From Sulfitobacter noctilucicola (GTDB lineage Bacteria; Pseudomonadota; Alphaproteobacteria; Rhodobacterales; Rhodobacteraceae), in contig NZ_JASD01000008.1 in the NCBI RefSeq assembly GCF_000622385.1, positions 2,418,001 to 2,482,000 of the forward strand: DNA of 64,000 bases, given 5' to 3'. Made by a program: the position numbers and the translations under genes. Below are positions 11,312 to 61,389 of this stretch, piece by piece (positions within the stretch are counted from its first letter, which is position 1; each line of letters starts with the position of its first letter). The notes beneath the pieces are model-generated. The model had not been told where the DNA came from, ran no database searches, and saw nothing but the letters and a program-made list of their open reading frames with translations.

Positions 11312-11787
11312 GGGAGCAACTGGATGTTGCCGAACGCAGCATCGGAGTTGAGCAAATCTACACGTTTGTTCGCAATCCGCAGGGCTCCGTCCACGACCGT
11401 CAAATCATGTACTGCCGTGAGTGCCAGCAAGAATTGCTCATCCAGTCGCGTCTCTACATAGTGCATCGACGTGTTGGTCTGATACCGGTTCTCCTCCGGC
11501 TCGAACACATCGACGAAGGGACGCTGGATCACGTGGTGACAGCGGCTTTTGGGTTTCTGGCTGAATGTACGCGCACCTTCCAGCCGCTCCACCCGCAGAC
11601 GCAGCATGAACTGGTCTTCGTAGAGCAGGGAGGTGATGCAATCGGGGTCGGTCTGTTTGTAATCAAGCGGCATCCAATAGATGCCATCTGGCTGCCACAG
11701 GTCGAGCCATTGGCTGAAATGCCCCTCGTCAAGCATCCGCGCTTCGGCATAGATGAAATCAATCAGATCATCGCGGGACGGGGTCAT
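11308..11787 (-). CDS. Rieske oxygenase, small (beta) subunit
   Basis: A 159-residue protein with the compact SnoaL/NTF2-like fold and length of aromatic ring-hydroxylating dioxygenase beta subunits. Features are the N-terminal helix RDDLIDFIYAEARMLDE, then DLWQPDGIYWMPL and the C-terminal strand region ending in NIQLLP. It has a structural role in the alpha3-beta3 oxygenase. The start at 11787 overlaps the alpha-subunit stop (ATGA); the open frame upstream would only extend into that gene. Confidence 0.9.
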   Translation of the reverse strand: MTPSRDDLIDFIYAEARMLDEGHFSQWLDLWQPDGIYWMPLDYKQTDPDCITSLLYEDQFMLRLRVERLEGARTFSQKPKSRCHHVIQRPFVDVFEPEENRYQTNTSMHYVETRLDEQFLLALTAVHDLTVVDGALRIANKRVDLLNSDAAFGNIQLLP

Positions 11788-13118
11788 TCTGCGGCCTCTG
11801 CATTTGGAACCGAAGGTTGAGGGGTCATGAATTTGGCCCAAGCGTTGAACTGGTTGCGCATCTGACGCTCGGTCGTACCGTTCTCGACGGCCTCAACGTC
11901 AAAGTCCTCATCCTCTTGATAAAGGCGCTGGACGTTGACCCACTCAAGCCCCTCCGACATCAGCCCTTCCTGCGCGCGTTCGTACATCTCCAGATCATCG
12001 TGCCCGACGATGGAGGTCGGCGCGTTGATCATGCGGTTGTACATGGCGGACCGTGCGACCAGCGCATCGGGTGCGCCAACGGGGCGGTAGACGTAGCTTT
12101 CGACCAGCGTTTTGTCGGCACCCATCGGGATAAAATTACGCAGCTGTCCCAAAGGCGCTTTAACCATGATGTTAGGAAAATAGACGGTGTTGTGGCGGTT
12201 CTCATCCAGAATGGCGCGGGCCATGTCGGCGCCATAAGCCTCGGTCATTGCGTCAAAGTAGCCCGGAATGGAATCGTAGTCGGAATGGATCGACCCCTGC
12301 ACGCCAGTATGGCCATGCCCGTTGGGCCACGTGCGAATACCCATCCCTTCAAAAAAATCATACGCACTCATAAACGGGGCGATGATCTGCATCGCAGCGG
12401 GGCGCGGTTCGGGATTGCCCAGCTCGTCCCAGATTTTTACCGCTGTGCCTGCGCTGCTTTCGTGCGCGACCATGGGATGGCAGGTATCGGTCTGGTTCTC
12501 GACCAACATCTTCCAGTTGCATTTATGCATGTAGCGCAGAGGCGGGCCCGCAACTTCCATGCGTCCCTCTGGTGCGCGGTCAACCATATTGTCGATGGAG
12601 GACAGGCTGTCGCCAAAGAACTCCTCAAAGGAAATTCCCTCATCCGCCAACCGAGCAAAGACGAAGCCGCGGTAGTTGTGCACAGCACCGACGGCCTTCA
12701 TGCCCTTGCCGTTCTCTGTCTCTTTCAGCGTGGTTCCATCATAGCCCTTTTTCAGGGGTATCGCCAAAAGGCAGCCATCCGTCTTGAACGACCATGCGTG
12801 ATAGGGGCAGCGAAAGAACTTCCCGGTGTTGCCCTCCCGGTCGATGGCAATCTTGGTCCCCTTGTGCGGGCAACGGTTGTAAAGTACGTGAATTTCGCCA
12901 TCCGAATGACGCACCTGTATGATCGGCTGATCGGCGATCTGGGTGGTGAAATAGTCGCCCTTGTTCGGCGTCTGGCTGTCGTGCCCGACAAACATCCAGA
13001 CATTGCGAAACAGATGCTGTGTCTCAAGCCGGTAGACCTCGGGCGAGGTATAAAGGTCGCGGTGCACGCGGTGGCCCTGCACCAGATCGGTCACATTTTC
13101 TTGCGTATAGGCAGGCAT
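11784..13118 (-). CDS. Aromatic ring-hydroxylating dioxygenase, Rieske (alpha) subunit
   Basis: A 444-residue catalytic subunit of a Rieske non-heme iron oxygenase. The Rieske [2Fe-2S] ligands are C83-x-H85 and C104-x2-H107. The mononuclear iron site is visible as N208..D211-x2-H214-x4-H219 (ENQTDTCHPMVAHE). It has a strong AAAGGAG site upstream of the ATG. With its own beta subunit and reductase it should insert O2 into a ring or activated carbon, typically making a cis-dihydrodiol or hydroxylated product. The overall pattern is closest to benzoate/anthranilate-type enzymes by eye, but the substrate is not settled. Confidence 0.92.
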   Translation of the reverse strand: MPAYTQENVTDLVQGHRVHRDLYTSPEVYRLETQHLFRNVWMFVGHDSQTPNKGDYFTTQIADQPIIQVRHSDGEIHVLYNRCPHKGTKIAIDREGNTGKFFRCPYHAWSFKTDGCLLAIPLKKGYDGTTLKETENGKGMKAVGAVHNYRGFVFARLADEGISFEEFFGDSLSSIDNMVDRAPEGRMEVAGPPLRYMHKCNWKMLVENQTDTCHPMVAHESSAGTAVKIWDELGNPEPRPAAMQIIAPFMSAYDFFEGMGIRTWPNGHGHTGVQGSIHSDYDSIPGYFDAMTEAYGADMARAILDENRHNTVYFPNIMVKAPLGQLRNFIPMGADKTLVESYVYRPVGAPDALVARSAMYNRMINAPTSIVGHDDLEMYERAQEGLMSEGLEWVNVQRLYQEDEDFDVEAVENGTTERQMRNQFNAWAKFMTPQPSVPNAEAAE

Positions 13119-13133
13119 GGGCAGGCTCCTTTC

Positions 13134-14078
13134 CTAAAGATCCAGAACGAGACGGGCGGACTTGGCGCGGCTCACACAAATCTGCATGACGTCACCGCTG
13201 GCTTTTTCGGCGTCCGACAGTACCACGTCGCGATGATCCGGCGTACCGCTGACCACATCCGTCTGGCAAATCCCGCAATCACCGCGCTGGCAATCGTACA
13301 TCAGATCAAGGCCGTTTTCCTCAAGCACGTCAATGATGCTCTTGCCAGGCGGGATGACATAGACCTCACCGGTCGAGGCGACTTCGACCTCGAATGCTGT
13401 GTCGCCGTCCTCGGCCTGTGGCGTGCTAAATAGCTCCAGATGGACTTGCGCATCGGGCAGGCTTGCGGCGCTCGCTGCATTGCGCGCGGCGTCGATCATG
13501 CCCTTGGGTCCGCATATATAAAGGTGGGTATCGAGGGTGAGCGTCGCCATCAGCGCGGTGAGATCGAGAGGTGTCTCATCGTCGGGGTGGCAGGTGAGTT
13601 GATCGCTGAAATCTTGCGAGAGCGGTTCCAGAAATCCCATCACATCGCGCGACCGGCCCGCGTAGTGTAGCGCGAATGGGCGACCAGTGCGTTGCAGCGT
13701 TGTTGCCATGGAAATCAGCGGGGTGATCCCGATGCCGCCACCGAGCAACACGGCAGGACCGGTGTGGTCTTCTACTCCAAAATCGTTCTTGGGCGGCGTT
13801 GCTGCGATCTTTGTTCCGACGGTCAGTGCGTGCATGGCACGCGATCCACCGGTACCGCCGTCCTCACGCTGAACCGCAATACGGTAGGCCGCGCCAGCAG
13901 CGTCCTGCGCCCAATCAATCAGGGAATAAGATCGTGTTCCTTTGTCACCCAGATCAAAAGTCAGATGCGCTCCTGCTTCATAATCGGGGAGGGGAGAGCC
14001 ATCCGCTGTTGACAGATCGAAGACACGGATGCGGTCCGTCTCGTTGTGCAGTCCGGTGATGATCAGGTCCATGGTCAC
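13134..14078 (-). CDS. Oxidoreductase with FMN/NAD domains and C-terminal 2Fe-2S ferredoxin (VanB/phthalate reductase type)
   Basis: A 314-residue electron-transfer partner for the adjacent Rieske oxygenase. It has the order FMN-binding barrel with RSYSL (near 55), NAD domain (LLGGGIGITPL near 110; ICGPKG near 193) and plant-type ferredoxin at the C-terminus. The ferredoxin ligands sit in the DCQRGDCGIC pattern near residue 270, with the last Cys in MQICVSRA. This is the phthalate dioxygenase reductase / VanB arrangement. GTG at 14078 has GGGAG seven bases upstream and is preferred; ATG at 14072 is the alternative. It is the first gene of the operon, and the palindrome at 14100-14115 lies in its promoter. 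Confidence 0.9.
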   Translation of the reverse strand: MTMDLIITGLHNETDRIRVFDLSTADGSPLPDYEAGAHLTFDLGDKGTRSYSLIDWAQDAAGAAYRIAVQREDGGTGGSRAMHALTVGTKIAATPPKNDFGVEDHTGPAVLLGGGIGITPLISMATTLQRTGRPFALHYAGRSRDVMGFLEPLSQDFSDQLTCHPDDETPLDLTALMATLTLDTHLYICGPKGMIDAARNAASAASLPDAQVHLELFSTPQAEDGDTAFEVEVASTGEVYVIPPGKSIIDVLEENGLDLMYDCQRGDCGICQTDVVSGTPDHRDVVLSDAEKASGDVMQICVSRAKSARLVLDL

Positions 14079-14098
14079 GGCAGCGCTCCCTCGAATTT

Positions 14099-14127
14099 AA
14101 TATGAAATTTCATATACCCTGCGTCAA
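14099..14127 (-). promoter_or_regulatory. Likely sigma-70 promoter of the oxygenase operon
   Basis: On the minus strand TTGACG (14127-14122) is followed after 17 bases by CATATT (14104-14099). The spacer and -10 are overlapped by the 16-bp palindrome, which is where a repressor would block it. The hexamers were matched by eye. Confidence 0.5.
14100..14115. promoter_or_regulatory. Perfect 16-bp palindrome, probable MarR operator
   Basis: ATATGAAATTTCATAT is a perfect inverted repeat between the divergent reductase gene and the marR gene. MarR-family dimers classically bind AT-rich palindromes of this size in such intergenic regions. It lies 22 bp before the reductase start codon and overlaps the predicted promoter elements of the catabolic operon, so de-repression by a pathway aromatic or its CoA ester is a reasonable model. 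Confidence 0.65.
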
Positions 14128-14135
14128 CAGTTTTG

Positions 14136-14164
14136 TTGACCGCCTGGATCGGCTGACCTATCGC
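14136..14164 (+). promoter_or_regulatory. Possible promoter of the marR-like gene
   Basis: TTGACC (14136-14141) and TATCGC (14159-14164) are spaced by 17 bases. If this is the promoter, transcription would begin at about 14170, just past the ATG at 14169, which would make the TTG at 14193 the real start of the regulator gene. Confidence 0.35.
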
Positions 14165-14168
14165 AGCG

Positions 14169-14654
14169 ATGGAGCAGTCGGAGAGAACAGGTTTGAACGA
14201 CAACCGGACAAACACGCAGGACGGCTTTGTTTCGTCTTATTTGCTTTACCTTCTGGCGGCGGTCAGTGATCGCGCCTCTGCGCAGTTTCACACCCATGCG
14301 CGGGCGTATGGACTTCGTGTGCCGGAATGGCGCGTGCTTGCCTGCCTAATGGATGAGGATGGTGCGATGGTGACACGGCTGGCGCATCTGTCGCTGTTGG
14401 AACAATCACGACTGACCAAGATTGTGGACCAGATGGTCGCACGCGGGTTGGTGAGCCGTCGTGCCGATGCCAAAGACAAGCGGCGCGTGCGGGTTTTTCT
14501 AAGTGACGAAGGCCGCAAGCTGGCCACAGGTCTGATCGACGATGCCCGCGCGCACGAAGAGAATCTGCTCGGGCGACTATCCCAGTCAGAGGCGGCGGCG
14601 CTGAAACCGGTGCTGCAAAAGCTGCTGAGGTCGCTTGACCAGACTGACGGATGA
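14169..14654 (+). CDS. MarR family transcriptional regulator
   Basis: A winged-helix MarR regulator of 161 residues from the ATG at 14169, or 153 from the TTG at 14193. The TTG is preceded by GGAGAGAACAGG and fits a possible promoter whose -10 ends at 14164. The winged-helix core is clear: VPEWRVLACLMDEDGAMVTR, LLEQSRLTKIVDQMVARGLV and the DAKDKRRVRVFLSDEG wing. It is divergent from the Rieske/CoA-ligase operon and probably represses that operon and itself through the palindrome at 14100. The selA gene follows 71 bp downstream on the same strand, but a functional link is not evident. Confidence 0.9.
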   Translation: MEQSERTGLNDNRTNTQDGFVSSYLLYLLAAVSDRASAQFHTHARAYGLRVPEWRVLACLMDEDGAMVTRLAHLSLLEQSRLTKIVDQMVARGLVSRRADAKDKRRVRVFLSDEGRKLATGLIDDARAHEENLLGRLSQSEAAALKPVLQKLLRSLDQTDG

Positions 14655-14725: not shown

Positions 14726-16117
14726 ATGCCGCCACGCTTGCAAGACTTGCCGCAGATCCAAACCCTGCTGGATCAACCCGCAATTGCGGTACTTACAGAA
14801 CGCTACAGTCATGAAGAGACCGCTGTCGCATTGCGTTTGATTGTGGGTGCCCTGCGCGATGCGTTGCGGGGAGGTCGCGAGGTTGTGTGGCCCGATTTCG
14901 AGAGCATGGCTTTTGCAGCAGAGGTGACGGCAAAGATTGAGGCAGGTCGTGCGCCCTCCCTGCGCCCCGTCATCAATGCTACGGGTATCTTGATCCACAC
15001 CAATCTGGGCCGCGCCCGTATGGCACCGCAAGCTGTAGCAGCGATGCAATCCGTCGCCGAAGCTGCCGGTAATCTGGAATTCGATTTGAGCACAGGCAAG
15101 CGCGGCTCGCGTCACTCTCATACCGAACGCCTCATCTGCGAGCTTACAGGGGCAGAGGCCGCAGTGGTCGTTAACAATTGTGCCGCCGCCGTGCTTCTCA
15201 GCCTGATGGCCACTGCTGGCGGGCGCAGTGTTGTTGCATCACGCGGAGAGTTGATCGAGATCGGTGGCTCCTTCCGGTTGCCGGACGTGATTGCACAAAG
15301 TGGTGCGACCCTGCGCGAAGTGGGAACAACAAACAAAACAAGATTGTCTGATTACGCGGATGCAATTGAACCGGATACGGCCGTCCTTTTGAAAAGCCAT
15401 ACCAGCAACTTCAGAATTGTGGGCTTTACCGCAGCGCCCGCACGGCGCGATCTTGCCAAGCTTGCCGCGGAGCGAAATGTTATCCTGATCGAAGATCTCG
15501 GCTCGGGTGTGTTGGTTGATCTATCGCCTTTCGGGCTGCGGGATGAACCTGTGGTGGCGGATATACTCAAGGATGGTGTTGATCTGGTGATGTTCTCTGG
15601 CGACAAGCTGTTGGGTGGGCCGCAGGCCGGTATCATTGCGGGGCGGCGTGATGTGGTGGCCCAACTCAAGGCGCATCCGCTGATGCGGGCGCTGCGCAGT
15701 GACAAGCTGACCTTGGCCGCACTTGAAGCGACCTTGCGGCTGTACCGTGCGCCCCACAACCCGATGAAAGAAGTGCCTGTTCTTGCCATGCTGTCAGAGC
15801 CTTTGGCGTCGGTTCAGGATCGCGCGGACAAACTGGCGCGAGAATTGAGCACTATTGCAAACCTTGATCCAGAGACCGAACAGACTGCGGCCTATGTCGG
15901 CGGTGGTTCCTTGCCTCAGCAGGATTTAGACAGCTTTGCCGTCAGTGTTGCTCTTGACGGCATGTCTCCCGACGATCTGATGACCGCCTTGCGAAGCGCG
16001 GCGACACCTGTGATTGGCCGGATCGAGCGGAACCGTGTGCTGTTGGATATGCGGACCGTGCAGGATTGCGAGACAGCTCTTATCGTTGCCGCATTCACTC
16101 AGATTTCCGCCGCATGA
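14726..16117 (+). CDS. selA: L-seryl-tRNA(Sec) selenium transferase
   Basis: SelA is a PLP enzyme that converts Ser-tRNA(Sec) to Sec-tRNA(Sec) with selenophosphate. The protein has 463 residues, like the enterobacterial enzyme. The conserved N-terminal block RPVINATGILIHTNLGRA and the PLP-lysine motif FSGDKLLGGPQAG (K294) are intact. A GAGG site precedes the ATG. The stop overlaps the selB start (ATGA), and selC follows selB, so the machinery is one transcription unit. The selenophosphate synthetase gene selD is not in this window and must lie elsewhere if the system works. Confidence 0.97.
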   Translation: MPPRLQDLPQIQTLLDQPAIAVLTERYSHEETAVALRLIVGALRDALRGGREVVWPDFESMAFAAEVTAKIEAGRAPSLRPVINATGILIHTNLGRARMAPQAVAAMQSVAEAAGNLEFDLSTGKRGSRHSHTERLICELTGAEAAVVVNNCAAAVLLSLMATAGGRSVVASRGELIEIGGSFRLPDVIAQSGATLREVGTTNKTRLSDYADAIEPDTAVLLKSHTSNFRIVGFTAAPARRDLAKLAAERNVILIEDLGSGVLVDLSPFGLRDEPVVADILKDGVDLVMFSGDKLLGGPQAGIIAGRRDVVAQLKAHPLMRALRSDKLTLAALEATLRLYRAPHNPMKEVPVLAMLSEPLASVQDRADKLARELSTIANLDPETEQTAAYVGGGSLPQQDLDSFAVSVALDGMSPDDLMTALRSAATPVIGRIERNRVLLDMRTVQDCETALIVAAFTQISAA

Positions 16118-18021
16118 CGACCCGCTGCGTTGTTGTCATCGGACATGTCGATCATGGCAAGACCGCGCTCGTGCGCGCTCTGACTGGTACCGAGACTGAC
16201 CGTTTGGCCGAGGAGAAGGAACGCGGGCTGTCGATTACACCCGGTTTCGCATACTGCAAATATGACAGGGGCATCATTGATCTGGTCGATGCGCCGGGTC
16301 ACGCGGATTTTGTTCAGGCGATGGTTGCAGGGGCCAGCGGTGCAAGCGCGGCTTTGCTGGTGGTGTCTGCCACGGATGGTATCGGCGTGCAGACGCAAGA
16401 ACATTTGGCGATTGCCGCCGCACTTGGGATCGACTGCGGCGTGGTGGCAGTCACAAAATCTGATGCTTTGCCCGCGGGTGCGGAGATCAAGGTTCTGCCC
16501 GATCTGAAACAGGCGCTGCGCGGCAGTGCGTTAGAAGACGCGCCCATGATCCTGTGCTCTGCGCTCCGCGGTGATGGCATCGCAAAAATTCATGACGCCC
16601 TCGAAGCGCTTTTGTCGCTCTCGCCTGCAAAGAACGGCCCATTGCACAGTTTCCTGCCGATTGATCGCGCTTTTTCGGTGGAGGGGCGCGGGACAGTTGT
16701 CACCGGTACGCTTTCGGGTGGTGGATTGCGAACGAGCGACACACTGACTGTGCTTCCCGCAGGCCGATCAGTCACGCTTCGGGGGCTGCAATCGCGGGCG
16801 CAGGATCGTAAAGCCGTTCGGCCAGGTGAAAGGGTGGCGGCCAACCTGCGCGGCGTGAGTGTGAGCGAAGTATCTCGTGGTTCGGTGCTTTGCGCTGAGG
16901 GGCAGTTTGTTCCGTCCACCTGCCTGGACGTGCATCTGGCGCTGATACCCGGAACCAAAATTGAGCTGCGTCATATGCAGGACGTGCGCTTGCTGATCGG
17001 AACCCAAAGTGTCACTGCGCAACTTCGCCTTTTCGGTCGGCGAATGTTGGCATCTGGTGAGGCGGGTACGGCACAACTGCGGCTGTCAAAGCCGATAGTC
17101 GGGTTTGCAGGACAACGCGCTGTGCTTCGACGTTTGTCGCCTGCTCAAACGCTTGCCGGGGTCGATGTGCTCGACCCGAATGCAGTGCCAGCGGGCGGCG
17201 GGGACAAAGCCCGGTCGTGTATCCTTGAGGCAGCGTTAGAAGGCCCAGTCACCAGCATCGCGGCAGCACTGGCCGCCGCCAATCGTGGTGCTGTCTCTAT
17301 CGAAGACGTGGCGCGTTTGGCGCGTATGCACATTGCGGATGTTCGTGCGGCTTTGGCTGCGAGTTACGTCGCATTGGATGCCGAAACCTTGGCTGCCCGC
17401 ATAGATGCGGAGGCGTGCCGCACGGCCATCCTCAAAAACCTGTCGTCCTATCACGCCCGACACCCTTTGCGTTCGGTCGCGCCGCTCGCTGACATTTCGC
17501 CGACTGATTTCGCGCCTGCGCTTTTGAACATGGCGTATACCACACTGAAAGAGAGCGGCGAAATTCGCCAGAGGGCCAACAAGGTCGGCCTGCGGAGGCA
17601 TGATCCGACCGCTTTTGCATCAGCCGAACAGCTTGCGCGTATGGATGATTTCGAAATGATCTTCCGGCAAGGCGGGCTTGCCTCTCCGGCTTTCGAGAGC
17701 CTGAGCAAGACGGATGAAGATGCCGAAATTCTGACCCTTCTGCTGGATAGGGGGCAGTTGCTCTCGCTGGAAAATATCGGACTTAAACAAACCGTCATAC
17801 TCCACTGCGATACGGTCTTGCGGTCGGCCAAAACGCTGGATGGGGCATTTCCGAACCAAGGTCGGTTTACAACAGGGGCAGCGCGGGATGCGTTAGGCAC
17901 AAGCCGACGTGTGATCGTGCCGTTGCTTGAATACTTCGACAGCATTGGTGTGACGCAACGGGACGGCGACCTGCGGTGTGTTTCGCGTGTGAACAAGGGT
18001 TTACCCCAAGATACTGATTGA
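16114..18021 (+). CDS. selB: Selenocysteine-specific translation elongation factor
   Basis: SelB (635 residues) carries Sec-tRNA(Sec) to the ribosome at UGA codons that are followed by a SECIS hairpin. The GTPase motifs are visible: GHVDHGK (residues 10-16), DAPGH, and VTKSD in place of the usual NKxD. EF-Tu-like domains II-III follow, and the C-terminal ~250 residues form the winged-helix repeats that bind the SECIS, ending in a typical last wing (GAARDALGTSRRVIVPLLEY). The ATG at 16114 overlaps the selA stop; the longer open frame is ignored. A client with such a hairpin is encoded 1.8 kb downstream. Confidence 0.96.
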   Translation: MTTRCVVVIGHVDHGKTALVRALTGTETDRLAEEKERGLSITPGFAYCKYDRGIIDLVDAPGHADFVQAMVAGASGASAALLVVSATDGIGVQTQEHLAIAAALGIDCGVVAVTKSDALPAGAEIKVLPDLKQALRGSALEDAPMILCSALRGDGIAKIHDALEALLSLSPAKNGPLHSFLPIDRAFSVEGRGTVVTGTLSGGGLRTSDTLTVLPAGRSVTLRGLQSRAQDRKAVRPGERVAANLRGVSVSEVSRGSVLCAEGQFVPSTCLDVHLALIPGTKIELRHMQDVRLLIGTQSVTAQLRLFGRRMLASGEAGTAQLRLSKPIVGFAGQRAVLRRLSPAQTLAGVDVLDPNAVPAGGGDKARSCILEAALEGPVTSIAAALAAANRGAVSIEDVARLARMHIADVRAALAASYVALDAETLAARIDAEACRTAILKNLSSYHARHPLRSVAPLADISPTDFAPALLNMAYTTLKESGEIRQRANKVGLRRHDPTAFASAEQLARMDDFEMIFRQGGLASPAFESLSKTDEDAEILTLLLDRGQLLSLENIGLKQTVILHCDTVLRSAKTLDGAFPNQGRFTTGAARDALGTSRRVIVPLLEYFDSIGVTQRDGDLRCVSRVNKGLPQDTD

Positions 18022-18037: not shown

Positions 18038-18132
18038 GGAGGTGACTGGAGTCTGGTGGCTTCCCTGGTCTTCAAAACCACGGACGCGTCCTTGGGGCGT
18101 GTGGTGGGTTCGATTCCCATCCACCTCCGCCA
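18038..18132 (+). tRNA. selC: tRNA-Sec (anticodon TCA)
   Basis: A 95-nt tRNA with encoded CCA, 16 bp after selB. The anticodon loop is CTTCAAA (anticodon TCA at 18072-18074). The D stem is six base pairs with a four-base loop (GGAGTC / GGCTTC), and the long variable arm has eight pairs (ACGCGTCC with its partner strand); both are hallmarks of tRNA-Sec. The T arm (loop TTCGATT) and the acceptor stem (GGAGGTG / CACCTCC) follow. Folding by hand gives a C.C mismatch in the anticodon stem (18065/18081) and an A.C at the eighth acceptor pair. Confidence 0.96.
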
Positions 18133-18196
18133 CAGCTTATGACTGGACATCAGCCTGCGATCCCGCAGTATGACAGTCCACGCGGGGGAGGGAACG

Positions 18197-19786
18197 ATGA
18201 GCAATGGAACACAGGCGTTCGCGCTGAAGGATTTGGCGGGGAAACGCCACGAATTTTCAAAAGATCGCCCTGCGCTGGTCTGTTTCGTGAAAGAAGATTG
18301 TGACACCTGCAACACTGCCGCACCTGTGCTTGAGGCGATGCACAAGGCTTATGGTGGTGCGTTTGAGATCATGCTGGTCGCGCAATCGGGCGCGCAGAAT
18401 GCGGCCTTCGCTGCGCGACACAACCTGACAATGCCGGTGCTGGACGACAGCGATTGCAAGGCGGCATTCGACTGGGACATCGAGAGCGTACCGTCGGTGC
18501 ATTGGTTGGATGGTGATGGGGACGTGAAGACCGCGTTTGAAGGGTTCATTCGCGCGGACTGGGAAAAACTGGTCGCCGATCTGAGCGTAGCACTTGATCT
18601 GCCTGCTGCGCAGGTCTACTGGGAAAGCTTGCCTGCATGGCGGCCCGGCTGCGGCTCCAAACATCTTGATCCGACGATCTATGACAGGTTGCGCGCGCAA
18701 GCCGATGGCAGCCCTATTCAAGCCCGCAAAATCGAGGTGGCAAGTGATGACGACGTGGCAGAGTTCATGTTCGATCAAGGGTTTTCTGACGGTTTGCCGC
18801 TTGTGCCACCCACACCTGAGCGGGTGATGCGTATGCTGTCTGGCACCCGCCGCGATGCACAGGATGTGGTGGCAGTCGTGCCTCCTAATATGGGCGTGGC
18901 CACCGTTGAAAAGATCGCGATCAACGCGGTTATGGCCGGGTGCAAGCCCGAATACCTTCCCGTTGTCATTGCGGCGGTTGAGGCGGTTTGCACCGATGAG
19001 TTCAATGTCCACGGTGTCACCGCGACCACCATGGGCGCGGCACCTGTTATGATCGTGAATGGGCCTATACGTGACAAGATTGGCATGAATAAGGGGTTGG
19101 GTGCTTTGGGCGCGGGGAACCGAGCGAACGCCACGATCGGGCGGGCCCTGCGGCTGGTGGTGCGAAATGTTGGCGGGGCGTCCACTGGTGGTGTGGAACG
19201 GTCGACCCACGGCAACCCCATGAAATTCACCATGTGCTTTGCGGAGCACGAGGAGCGTTCCCCATGGCCTGCGCTGCACGTAGAGCGAGGGTTTGATCCG
19301 GAGGATTCCGTGGTCACGGTCTTTGCGATGACCGGCGGCCCCGTACATATCGTCGATCAAACCTCGCGCAAACCTGAACAGATCGCGGGCTCTTTGGGGC
19401 TGGGGCTTGAAGGGGTTTTCCTGCCCAAGCTGCGCAATCTGCCAGTGGATGCCGTACTGGTGGTGTGCCCTGAACATATCGACACGCTGATGCGTGACGG
19501 CGACTATTCCAAAGACCGCCTGCGCGACCGTATTCAAGAAGTCACAACGCGTCCGCTTAGCGATATTATCGTAGACGAGAATTCAGGTGCCGGAATATCG
19601 CAGGACGCAGCATACAAGCTGGGGCCTGAAAAGATGGCAGGCTCGGTGCCGAAGTTCGCCAGCAAAGAACACATCCACATTGTCGTTGCCGGATCAGATG
19701 CGGGCAAATTTTCTTCTGCCTTCCACGGCTGGGCGTCAGGGCAGGTCGGCTCGCAATCTGTTTCCAAAAAGATCGACATGGACTAG
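18197..19786 (+). CDS. Thioredoxin-fold domain fused to an uncharacterised ~330-residue domain; selenoprotein partner candidate
   Basis: A 529-residue protein. Residues 1-150 look like a TlpA/thioredoxin fold with a CxxC redox pair, C35-D-T-C38, followed by a cis-Pro-like segment (ESVPSVHW). Residues about 185-529 form a domain I do not recognise. It is rich in conserved-looking glycines (GFSDGLPLVPPTPERV, GGASTGGVERSTHGNP) and ends in VVAGSDAGKFSSAFHGWASG. There is no signal peptide, so it is likely cytoplasmic. The start at 18197 is set by GGGGGAGGGA just upstream. It lies between selC and the UGSC selenoprotein gene (24 bp before it), which suggests that the two proteins act together, perhaps in a thiol/selenol redox reaction. 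Function is unknown. Confidence 0.8.
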   Translation: MSNGTQAFALKDLAGKRHEFSKDRPALVCFVKEDCDTCNTAAPVLEAMHKAYGGAFEIMLVAQSGAQNAAFAARHNLTMPVLDDSDCKAAFDWDIESVPSVHWLDGDGDVKTAFEGFIRADWEKLVADLSVALDLPAAQVYWESLPAWRPGCGSKHLDPTIYDRLRAQADGSPIQARKIEVASDDDVAEFMFDQGFSDGLPLVPPTPERVMRMLSGTRRDAQDVVAVVPPNMGVATVEKIAINAVMAGCKPEYLPVVIAAVEAVCTDEFNVHGVTATTMGAAPVMIVNGPIRDKIGMNKGLGALGAGNRANATIGRALRLVVRNVGGASTGGVERSTHGNPMKFTMCFAEHEERSPWPALHVERGFDPEDSVVTVFAMTGGPVHIVDQTSRKPEQIAGSLGLGLEGVFLPKLRNLPVDAVLVVCPEHIDTLMRDGDYSKDRLRDRIQEVTTRPLSDIIVDENSGAGISQDAAYKLGPEKMAGSVPKFASKEHIHIVVAGSDAGKFSSAFHGWASGQVGSQSVSKKIDMD

Positions 19787-19810
19787 GCTTACCTAACAAG
19801 GAGGGGTTAT

Positions 19811-20332
19811 ATGACAACAATTCTTGATCCCACAGACGAACGCACGCCGGTAGAGCGTCAGATCACCAAACGGTCTGGCGCGTTGGCGGGTGTGATTGGT
19901 CTGTTGGACATCAGTAAACCACGCGGCAACGTGATGCTGGACGAGCTGGAGCGACTTTTGTCCGCCAAGGCACCGGACATCACCGTGCGTCGCTACACCA
20001 AGCCTACGTATACCAAGCCGTGCCCGGATACGCTGCGCCAGCAGATGCGCGATGAATGTGATTTCGTGGTTGAGGGGTTGGCGGACTGAGGGTCCTGTAC
20101 GACGTGCAGTATGCACGACACAGTCTGGTTTGAAATCCAGGGACTTCCCGCAGTTGCCGTTGCCTCAAGCGAATTCGCTCAGGCCGCAGAAGCACAACGC
20201 AAGGCGTTGGGCATGACATCGGCGCGTTACGTATTGGTGCCGCATCCCATTCAGGATGCCACTGATGATGAAATGCGCGAGAAAGCCGCACAAGCGTTGG
20301 CACAGATTACCGACGCTTTGATCGAGGACTGA
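19811..20332 (+). CDS. UGSC-family selenoprotein (in-frame TGA read as selenocysteine)
   Basis: The gene appears as two ORFs (19811-20089 and 20111-20332) in the same frame, separated by a TGA at 20087. Reading that TGA as Sec gives a 173-residue protein with U93 in the motif LAD-U-G-S-C-TTC, the signature for which the UGSC family is named. The downstream part (MHDTVWFEIQGLPAVAVAS, VPHPIQDATDDEM) continues the same fold without a break. A strong AAGGAGGGG site precedes the ATG. The selA, selB and tRNA-Sec genes are immediately upstream, and a hairpin follows the UGA. The family is a known selenoprotein group of undefined activity; a redox role through Sec93 and the nearby cysteines is inferred. 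Automatic annotation would truncate it at residue 92. Confidence 0.92.
20087..20123 (+). promoter_or_regulatory. UGA-Sec codon and bacterial SECIS-like hairpin
   Basis: Starting five bases after the TGA, a stem CTGT/ACAG (20095-20098 with 20120-20123) encloses an internal loop and a second stem CGTGC/GCACG (20103-20107 with 20113-20117), capped by the loop AGTAT. Size and distance suit a bacterial SECIS read by SelB. The apical loop differs from the enterobacterial fdhF loop, as expected across species. Confidence 0.7.
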
Positions 20333-61008: not shown

Positions 61009-61389
61009 ACGCGCGGAAGGCTGGATGATCGCGGTCCCTTTATCGGGGTCGAGGAAAGTCCGGACTCCCAAAAGGAACGGTGCCGGGTAACGCCCGGGCG
61101 GGGTAACCCGACGGACAGCGCCACAGAAATGAAACCGCTTCGGGCTTTCCGGAGTAAGGGTGAAACGGTGGGGTAAGAGCCCACCGCGTCCTTGGCAACA
61201 AGGGTGGCACGGCAAGCCCCACCGGGAGCAATGCCAAATAGGGACCGCGCGTCGCAAGACAGGGCTTCTTTTGCCCGAGCAGGTCCGGGTTGGCAGCTAT
61301 AGCCGTCGCGGCAACGTGACGGTCAGAGGAATGATCATCCAGAGGCATCACGCCTTGGACAGAATCCGGCTTACAGGCCTTCCGCGCGT
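61009..61389 (+). ncRNA. rnpB: RNase P RNA (class A)
   Basis: A ~380-nt catalytic RNA that trims tRNA 5' ends. The ends pair as helix P1: CGCGCGGAAGGC at 61010 with GCCTTCCGCGCG at 61377. Universal core elements are present: GAGGAAAGTCCGGACTCC near 61049, GAGCAATGCCAAATAGG-like P9-P10 sequence near 61225, and the 3' ACAGAATCCGGCTTACAGG near 61360. A TTTTTT run follows P1, which can serve as terminator. Ends are accurate to a few bases. Confidence 0.95.

Follow-up and report, generated by a model that had tools for sequence, protein, structure and literature searches.

What is encoded at positions 19811 to 20332 of a 64,000-nucleotide stretch of Sulfitobacter noctilucicola DNA (contig NZ_JASD01000008.1, positions 2,418,001 to 2,482,000 of the forward strand; hereafter the window), and what kind of reaction might the product take part in? 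The original prediction, made from the sequence alone, was that two apparent short genes at this site are one gene for a selenoprotein of the UGSC family, with an in-frame TGA read as selenocysteine (Sec). Our analysis supports, at the level of sequence, a UGSC-family selenoprotein whose UGA would be decoded by the adjacent selA, selB, and tRNA-Sec genes together with a distant selD, directed by a compact hairpin of the Sec insertion sequence (SECIS) type. The gene directly upstream encodes a thioredoxin-like domain joined to a domain termed U1 here, and we put at roughly 0.55 the probability that UGSC and U1 constitute a thioredoxin-driven reductase resembling GrdB of glycine reductase, with its Sec decoded via the adjacent cassette. 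The features of the gene itself are as follows.

19811..20332, plus strand: UGSC-family selenoprotein gene; 173 residues with Sec93; matches to the family models NF041046 and PF24696 cross the TGA
20087..20089, plus strand: Sec codon TGA; TGA in 80/80 relatives
19799..19804, plus strand: Shine-Dalgarno sequence AGGAGG before the UGSC gene, identified in the sequence

The open reading frames (ORFs) at 19811-20089 (92 residues) and 20111-20332 (73 residues) lie in one common frame, in which the TGA at 20087-20089 is the sole stop ahead of the final stop, as had been claimed. Reading it as Sec yields the continuous protein that was foreseen, with the motif U93-G-S-C-T-T-C. The first ATG of the gene is preceded by AGGAGG, and by eye the ATG of the second ORF has no Shine-Dalgarno sequence. 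The readthrough product matched NF041046 with 172.3 bits (cut-off, 125) and PF24696 with 167.6 bits (cut-off, 25), in each case over its full length. Relatives were collected by a scan of genome contigs, the best 80 of 222 being retained, and these 80 loci and the window together gave 81 sequences. Up to codon 168, all 81 sequences were free of any additional in-frame stop. Compared with the window, the relatives differed at codon positions 1, 2, and 3 by 0.26, 0.16, and 0.57 for codons 1 to 92 and by 0.22, 0.17, and 0.56 for codons 107 to 170. This likeness on the two sides of the TGA indicates that coding selection continues past it. Homologues ending at residue 92 would have spoken for a true stop; those found run past that residue.

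The genes for Sec decoding and the hairpin that follows the UGA were located as follows.

14726..16117, plus strand: selA, L-seryl-tRNA(Sec) selenium transferase; TIGR00474, 576 bits (cut-off, 267.9)
16066..18021, plus strand: selB, Sec-specific elongation factor (longest ORF; by eye, the gene probably begins at the ATG of 16114); TIGR00475, 290 bits (cut-off, 242.25)
18038..18132, plus strand: tRNA-Sec with anticodon UCA; ARAGORN, and RF01852 with 73.1 bits (gathering score, 47)
20103..20117, plus strand: SECIS apical hairpin CGUGCA-GUA-UGCACG; six pairs kept in 36/36 distinct sequences among a total of 81; GUN loop in 81/81
20095..20123, plus strand: possible lower SECIS stem, 20095-20098 with 20120-20123; present in the minimum-energy fold, poorly kept

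The Sec machinery had been described as adjacent. This holds for selA, selB, and tRNA-Sec but not for selD, which lies away from the cassette at contig position C8:557760-558644; the genome thus contains the full set of selA, selB, selC (tRNA-Sec), and selD. Within the stretches of the 80 loci, selB was present in 69 and selA in 64, and tRNA-Sec was detected in 56 of the 60 relative loci scanned. The bistem hairpin proposed five bases past the codon does appear in the minimum-energy fold, where the upper stem pairs 20103-20108 with 20112-20117; of the two stems only the upper is conserved, and the folding energy, considered below, is ordinary. The lower stem is weak, since its four pairs are formed in only 18, 14, 29, and 15 of the 36 distinct sequences. 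One pair of the upper hairpin varies among G-C, G-U, and A-U. When the 88 degenerate codons whose residue is at least 90% conserved were ranked by synonymous variation, the four lowest entropies belonged to codons 98, 99, 100, and 102, all within the hairpin, whereas codons 94 to 97, which likewise follow the UGA, vary freely. Ser100 is AGT and Ser95 is TCN in all 81 sequences. In the loop, G is base 23 and U is base 24 when counting begins at the U of the UGA, which we take to be the numbering of the SelB contact bases in Escherichia coli fdhF. An Rfam scan at gathering scores returned no match to a SECIS family. Both a SECIS-like fold and a selD gene, on which the prediction had been staked, were found, the former as a conserved hairpin. 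Taken together, the family models, the relatives, the synonymous conservation of the stem-loop, and the complete Sec pathway uphold the assignment to the UGSC selenoproteins.

Gene callers treat the locus otherwise, as two separate small genes or a protein ended by a true stop at residue 92, and the databases hold many 92-residue entries that stop at the TGA, including P0159 from the window's own contig. Set against this are the uniformity of the TGA, the Cys homologues that run through the site, the similar purifying selection on both sides, the conserved SECIS stem, and the tRNA-Sec gene two genes upstream, and we give a true stop next to no chance. We regard a changed code, in which UGA specifies another residue such as Trp or Gly, as exceedingly improbable too. 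Some database entries do carry W (P0003 and P0006), G (P0002), or R (P0004) at the site, but the W and G entries look like products of gene callers using tables 4 or 25, the R entry looks like a one-base difference, and tRNA-Sec, SelA, and SelB are encoded next to the gene.

As a gene, this one is ordinary, because the family was already published in 2008 as the "UGSC-containing protein" (PMC2398784, in excerpt); it adds one member to a known family with NCBIfam and Pfam models. The same excerpt places UGSC among the more abundant selenoprotein families of marine metagenomes, with 255 Sec and 21 Cys forms in its table 2. The novel reading is that of a GrdB-like system, and what is new here for UGSC is the kinship, the modelled fold, the constant partner, and the link to thioredoxin. 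The openly accessible passages on UGSC in the selenium and trace-element literature gave no function and no link to GrdB, and a literature search combining UGSC with glycine reductase and GrdB gave no title on such a link among the matches listed. An excerpt from 2026 calls such functions largely uncharacterised (PMC13188914).

Motif variation was counted in 43 of 46 further homologues, three shorter than 150 residues being excluded. The site reads CGSC in 29 and CGSS in 11, with one each of G, W, and R before GSC, so that Cys occupies the Sec position in 40 of the 43. Many of the CGSC forms continue with TSW in place of TxC. The UGSCxxC arrangement that had been called conserved is therefore not universal. 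Cys96 is kept in 81/81 close Sec forms and also in 20 Sec forms from loci selected by the partner gene, which is described next.

18197..19786, plus strand: partner protein of 529 residues; thioredoxin/AhpC-TSA-like N terminus, then U1 with Cys249; PF00578, 30.5 bits (cut-off, 26)

A longer ORF for the partner begins at 18170, and 529 residues is the length of most relatives among the matches listed. Its N-terminal thioredoxin-like domain carries the motif CDTC (Cys35 and Cys38), both cysteines being invariant (29/29). The U1 region (18698-19783) had no Pfam or NCBIfam match at an expect value (E) of up to 10. Cys249 was present in 13/13 broad U1 domains; the profile of 13 excludes locus L113, where a frame break interrupts U1 and Ala stands in the place of Cys249. 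U1 (residues 170 to 529 of the 18197-19786 product) was also seen to be a large family, with 7999 of 8000 scored candidates matched and a strongly conserved NAVMAGC-P stretch, and it merits a family of its own. A domain named Unknown_1, described in excerpt as fused with UGSC (PMC2398784), is likely U1.

The partner gene lies less than 100 bases upstream of UGSC in all 78 loci with upstream sequence, the other two of the 80 having none. U1 adjoins or is fused with UGSC in all 11 plasmid loci that were fetched (of 21 records hit), which come from proteobacteria, one actinobacterium, and haloarchaea. In a search that began from the partner (E up to 1e-20), 142 genomes of the class were covered and 14 carried it, including the window's own. 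Twenty-five of the 36 matches were taken as loci, some of which overlap or share one contig, and UGSC was inside the fetched stretch in 21 of these 25, among them the window's own. The codon at the Sec site was UGA in 20 of these 21 genes; the remaining sequence (L154) is cut before the site. From this constant pairing, we infer that UGSC and the product of the upstream gene form one enzyme. Of the 11 plasmid loci, 3 encode a thioredoxin reductase that scores over the cut-off, with TrxA over the cut-off as well in one of these, and 2 more have a TrxB-like flavoprotein that falls below it.

Several loci showed departures from the usual arrangement or annotation. In L114, L115, L141, L147, and L151 to L153, a single UGSC gene is accompanied by two U1 genes, which suggests a hetero-oligomer with two U1 subunits for each UGSC. 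In L107 (Acidovorax sp. T1 plasmid p2-T1), where the U1 gene is absent from the listed annotation, and in L112 (Paracoccus ferrooxidans pFER4), where selB is nearby, UGSC genes that have TGA at the motif carry the annotation of short hypotheticals. In L090/L092, a Cys-type UGSC gene beside U1 in a relative is apparently broken between two frames.

The kinship of UGSC was examined with an alignment of 61 members, comprising the window protein, 19 sequences from the 80 loci, and a further 41 drawn from the 230 UGSC proteins among the matches listed; one source of UGSC proteins was 120 of 1966 matches. Each member was compared with 18,950 NCBIfam models, and matches were accepted at E up to 1. 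The GrdB model TIGR01917 was matched by 21 members (best E, 1.5e-5), GrdF by 19, GrdH by 11, the general selenoprotein-B model by 11, the GrdA model by 4 (best E, 0.066), and PrdB by 2. Apart from UGSC, each family outside this reductase group was matched by at most 3 members. When UGSC was aligned by hhalign with a set of 12 proteins of the GrdB/PrdB type (L085 excluded), the probability was 91.1 and the score was 53.2, while the best of 100 column shuffles scored 19.4. Register was kept when the motif was masked, with scores of 32.9 (seven columns) and 34.4 (three more on each side), and the shuffled controls of the wider mask reached a maximum of 16.6 in 100. The alignment with GrdB alone places Sec on Sec. 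The Sec site of UGSC stands in register with the U-G-T-C-T-x-C site of GrdB, at the end of a strand, and the two share a downstream pattern. Runs against GrdB and pooled sets in which the option "-glob 0" was given by mistake yielded 6 to 22% for Sec-only and 83 to 87% for Cys-only alignments, values that are not to be over-read. A PF07355 profile search of the window's own genome gave 0 matches. These comparisons offer weak to moderate support for the view that UGSC, a small protein of one domain, is related to the C-terminal Sec domain of GrdB and its kin.

The AlphaFold2 model of UGSC had a mean predicted local distance difference test score of 93.8 and consists of five alternating strand-helix units in the order b-a-b-a-b-[Sec]-a-b-a-b-a. 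Sec93 is placed after strand 3 and just ahead of the helix of residues 94 to 109. The order of strands and helices in the model differs from that of thioredoxin, and the predicted fold is a five-strand alpha/beta fold.

The original prediction had pictured a Sec-based redox or group-transfer center, which we would narrow to a Sec site like that of GrdB, with thioredoxin serving it. By analogy with GrdB and PrdB, the reaction is probably the cleavage of a carbon-heteroatom bond. In the proposed mechanism, the U1 domain would bind or activate the substrate, and the selenolate of Sec93, at the N terminus of helix 94-109, would attack the U1-bound substrate. Cys96 would then resolve the selenium adduct to a selenenylsulfide with release of the reduced product, and the enzyme would be re-reduced by the fused thioredoxin domain through its CxxC or, in other lineages, by separate TrxA/TrxB. 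In glycine reductase, a carboxymethyl selenoether is broken to a selenenylsulfide, and the thioredoxin dithiol is the reductant (PMC10298544, in excerpt). CoA-transferases, carboxylate transporters, and lyases among the neighbors of the plasmid loci hint at an organic acid substrate; because these neighbors vary and the window cassette has none, no substrate is named.

A number of results weigh against a thioredoxin-driven GrdB-like enzyme. Scanned by itself, the window protein had no hit with E up to 1 to any GrdB-type model, and every GrdB match was far below the curated cut-off (members with shown bits scored 17 to 19, versus 602), so the window protein is not filed as GrdB. The 61 members are related to one another, so the 21 matches should not be counted as independent, and column shuffling sets a low bar as a control. 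Masking the motif lowered the hhalign probability to 20 to 27% for the set of 12 and to 5 to 7% for GrdB alone, register being kept, which shows that the short motif carries much of the signal. UGSC aligned at 51.6% with PrdB alone and at only 2.7% with three proteobacterial GrdB-like proteins, and in a test by sequence the partner U1 gave 0.1 to 0.3% against GrdE, PrdA, or both. The second motif cysteine is absent in 11 of the 43 homologues, and 6 of the 11 plasmid loci had no annotated thioredoxin gene within 6 kb. Thioredoxin has been ruled out as the partner of D-proline reductase (PMC10298544, in excerpt), so the reductant is not constant in the group. On the separate question of the hairpin, the folding energy in the window speaks against a full bistem, being unremarkable (z, 0.44), and 126 of 200 shuffles folded at least as well.

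Two other functions deserve comparison. UGSC could be a Sec thiol-disulfide or peroxide oxidoreductase of the thioredoxin fold with the thioredoxin-U1 neighbor as its redox partner, as has been supposed in the marine metagenome literature and as the UxxC motif and the thioredoxin domain in the adjacent gene would allow. We consider this unlikely, since AlphaFold2 gives an alternating alpha/beta structure of five strands with Sec before the helix that follows strand 3, the alignment of UGSC with the neighbor's thioredoxin domain reached only 0.8% in hhalign, and the 22 families to which the 61 members had matches included no thioredoxin-family model; these results speak against the fold and less so against a disulfide or peroxide reductase activity. 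It is similarly doubtful that Sec and the U1 center transfer or release a group without net reduction, or handle a metal or metalloid, with thioredoxin merely keeping Sec reduced. The CGSS homologues, which are without the second Cys that a resolving-cysteine mechanism wants, would fit such a role, as would the CoA-transferases, lyases, and carboxylate transporters near the plasmid genes. However, Cys96 is constant in the Sec forms, both close and partner-selected, and several lineages have thioredoxin or its reductase either fused or encoded nearby, pointing to a net consumption of electrons.

If the GrdB-like reading is true, selenium-based reductive bond cleavage, known from amino-acid-fermenting anaerobes, extends to common proteobacteria. 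UGSC is among the commoner marine selenoproteins, and the GrdB kinship, the fixed partner, and the thioredoxin link make this orphan assayable with defined components. A broader and more tentative proposal, which we would not yet favor, is that UGSC and U1 may be a third branch of the glycine/proline reductase type, in which carbon-heteroatom cleavage would use Sec and be powered by thioredoxin without a GrdE-type pyruvoyl subunit. Such a branch would be scattered in alpha- and other proteobacteria, with Cys forms in actinobacteria and haloarchaea, and often accompanied by selB and tRNA-Sec as a cassette mainly for this enzyme.

Elsewhere in the window, a Rieske-type oxygenase and reductase (11784-14654), divergent from a MarR regulator, lie just upstream of selA; this region is not conserved with the cassette (2 weak matches among the 80 loci). 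A class A bacterial RNase P RNA is found at 61013-61389 (RF00010, 303 bits).

Among named systems, the protein is the same as UGSC (NF041046/PF24696) at the family level, with a full-length match over the cut-offs and Sec at the motif. With GrdB/GrdF/GrdH (PF07355 and TIGR01917) it shares the motif U-G-[ST]-C-T-x-C in register (U-G-S-C-T-T-C in UGSC and U-G-T-C-T-R-C in GrdB), followed, by eye, by E, G-[IL]-P, and then a P-[HY]-P strand. In Acetoanaerobium noterae and Peptoclostridium acidaminophilum, the GrdB genes have their TGA at the same place as UGSC, and thioredoxin, the reductant of glycine reductase, is the one proposed for UGSC. UGSC differs from GrdB in its 173 residues (versus 436 in three of four GrdB proteins), in having no match over the cut-off and no GrdE-like partner by sequence, and in its distribution, which here is mainly among alphaproteobacteria and not among amino-acid-fermenting anaerobes. 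In Roseomonas haemaphysalidis, a proteobacterial GrdB-like gene adjoins a SelO gene (L093:2468-4853).

PrdB of D-proline reductase (TIGR04483) resembles UGSC in being a small Sec subunit (about 241 residues) with a U-G-T-C motif that is paired with another subunit. Its partner PrdA, however, is a pyruvoyl proprotein that shows no relationship to U1 in sequence, and thioredoxin is said not to be the reductant of this enzyme (PMC10298544, in excerpt). On a Peptoclostridium acidaminophilum plasmid (L104/L122), matches of the PrdA and PrdB types fall in one open frame, with 594 codons to the Sec TGA, an arrangement resembling a prdA-prdB fusion. Fluoroacetate reductase FarB/FarE of Cloacibacillus porcorum MFA1 differs from the UGSC system in consisting of GrdB and GrdE homologues, with no U1 partner described in the available part of the source (PMC10838667). 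There, selenoproteins of the GrdB type are proposed, from expression evidence, to cleave the C-F bond of a non-amino-acid substrate, which suggests that GrdB-type proteins may extend past amino acids (PMC10838667, in excerpt).
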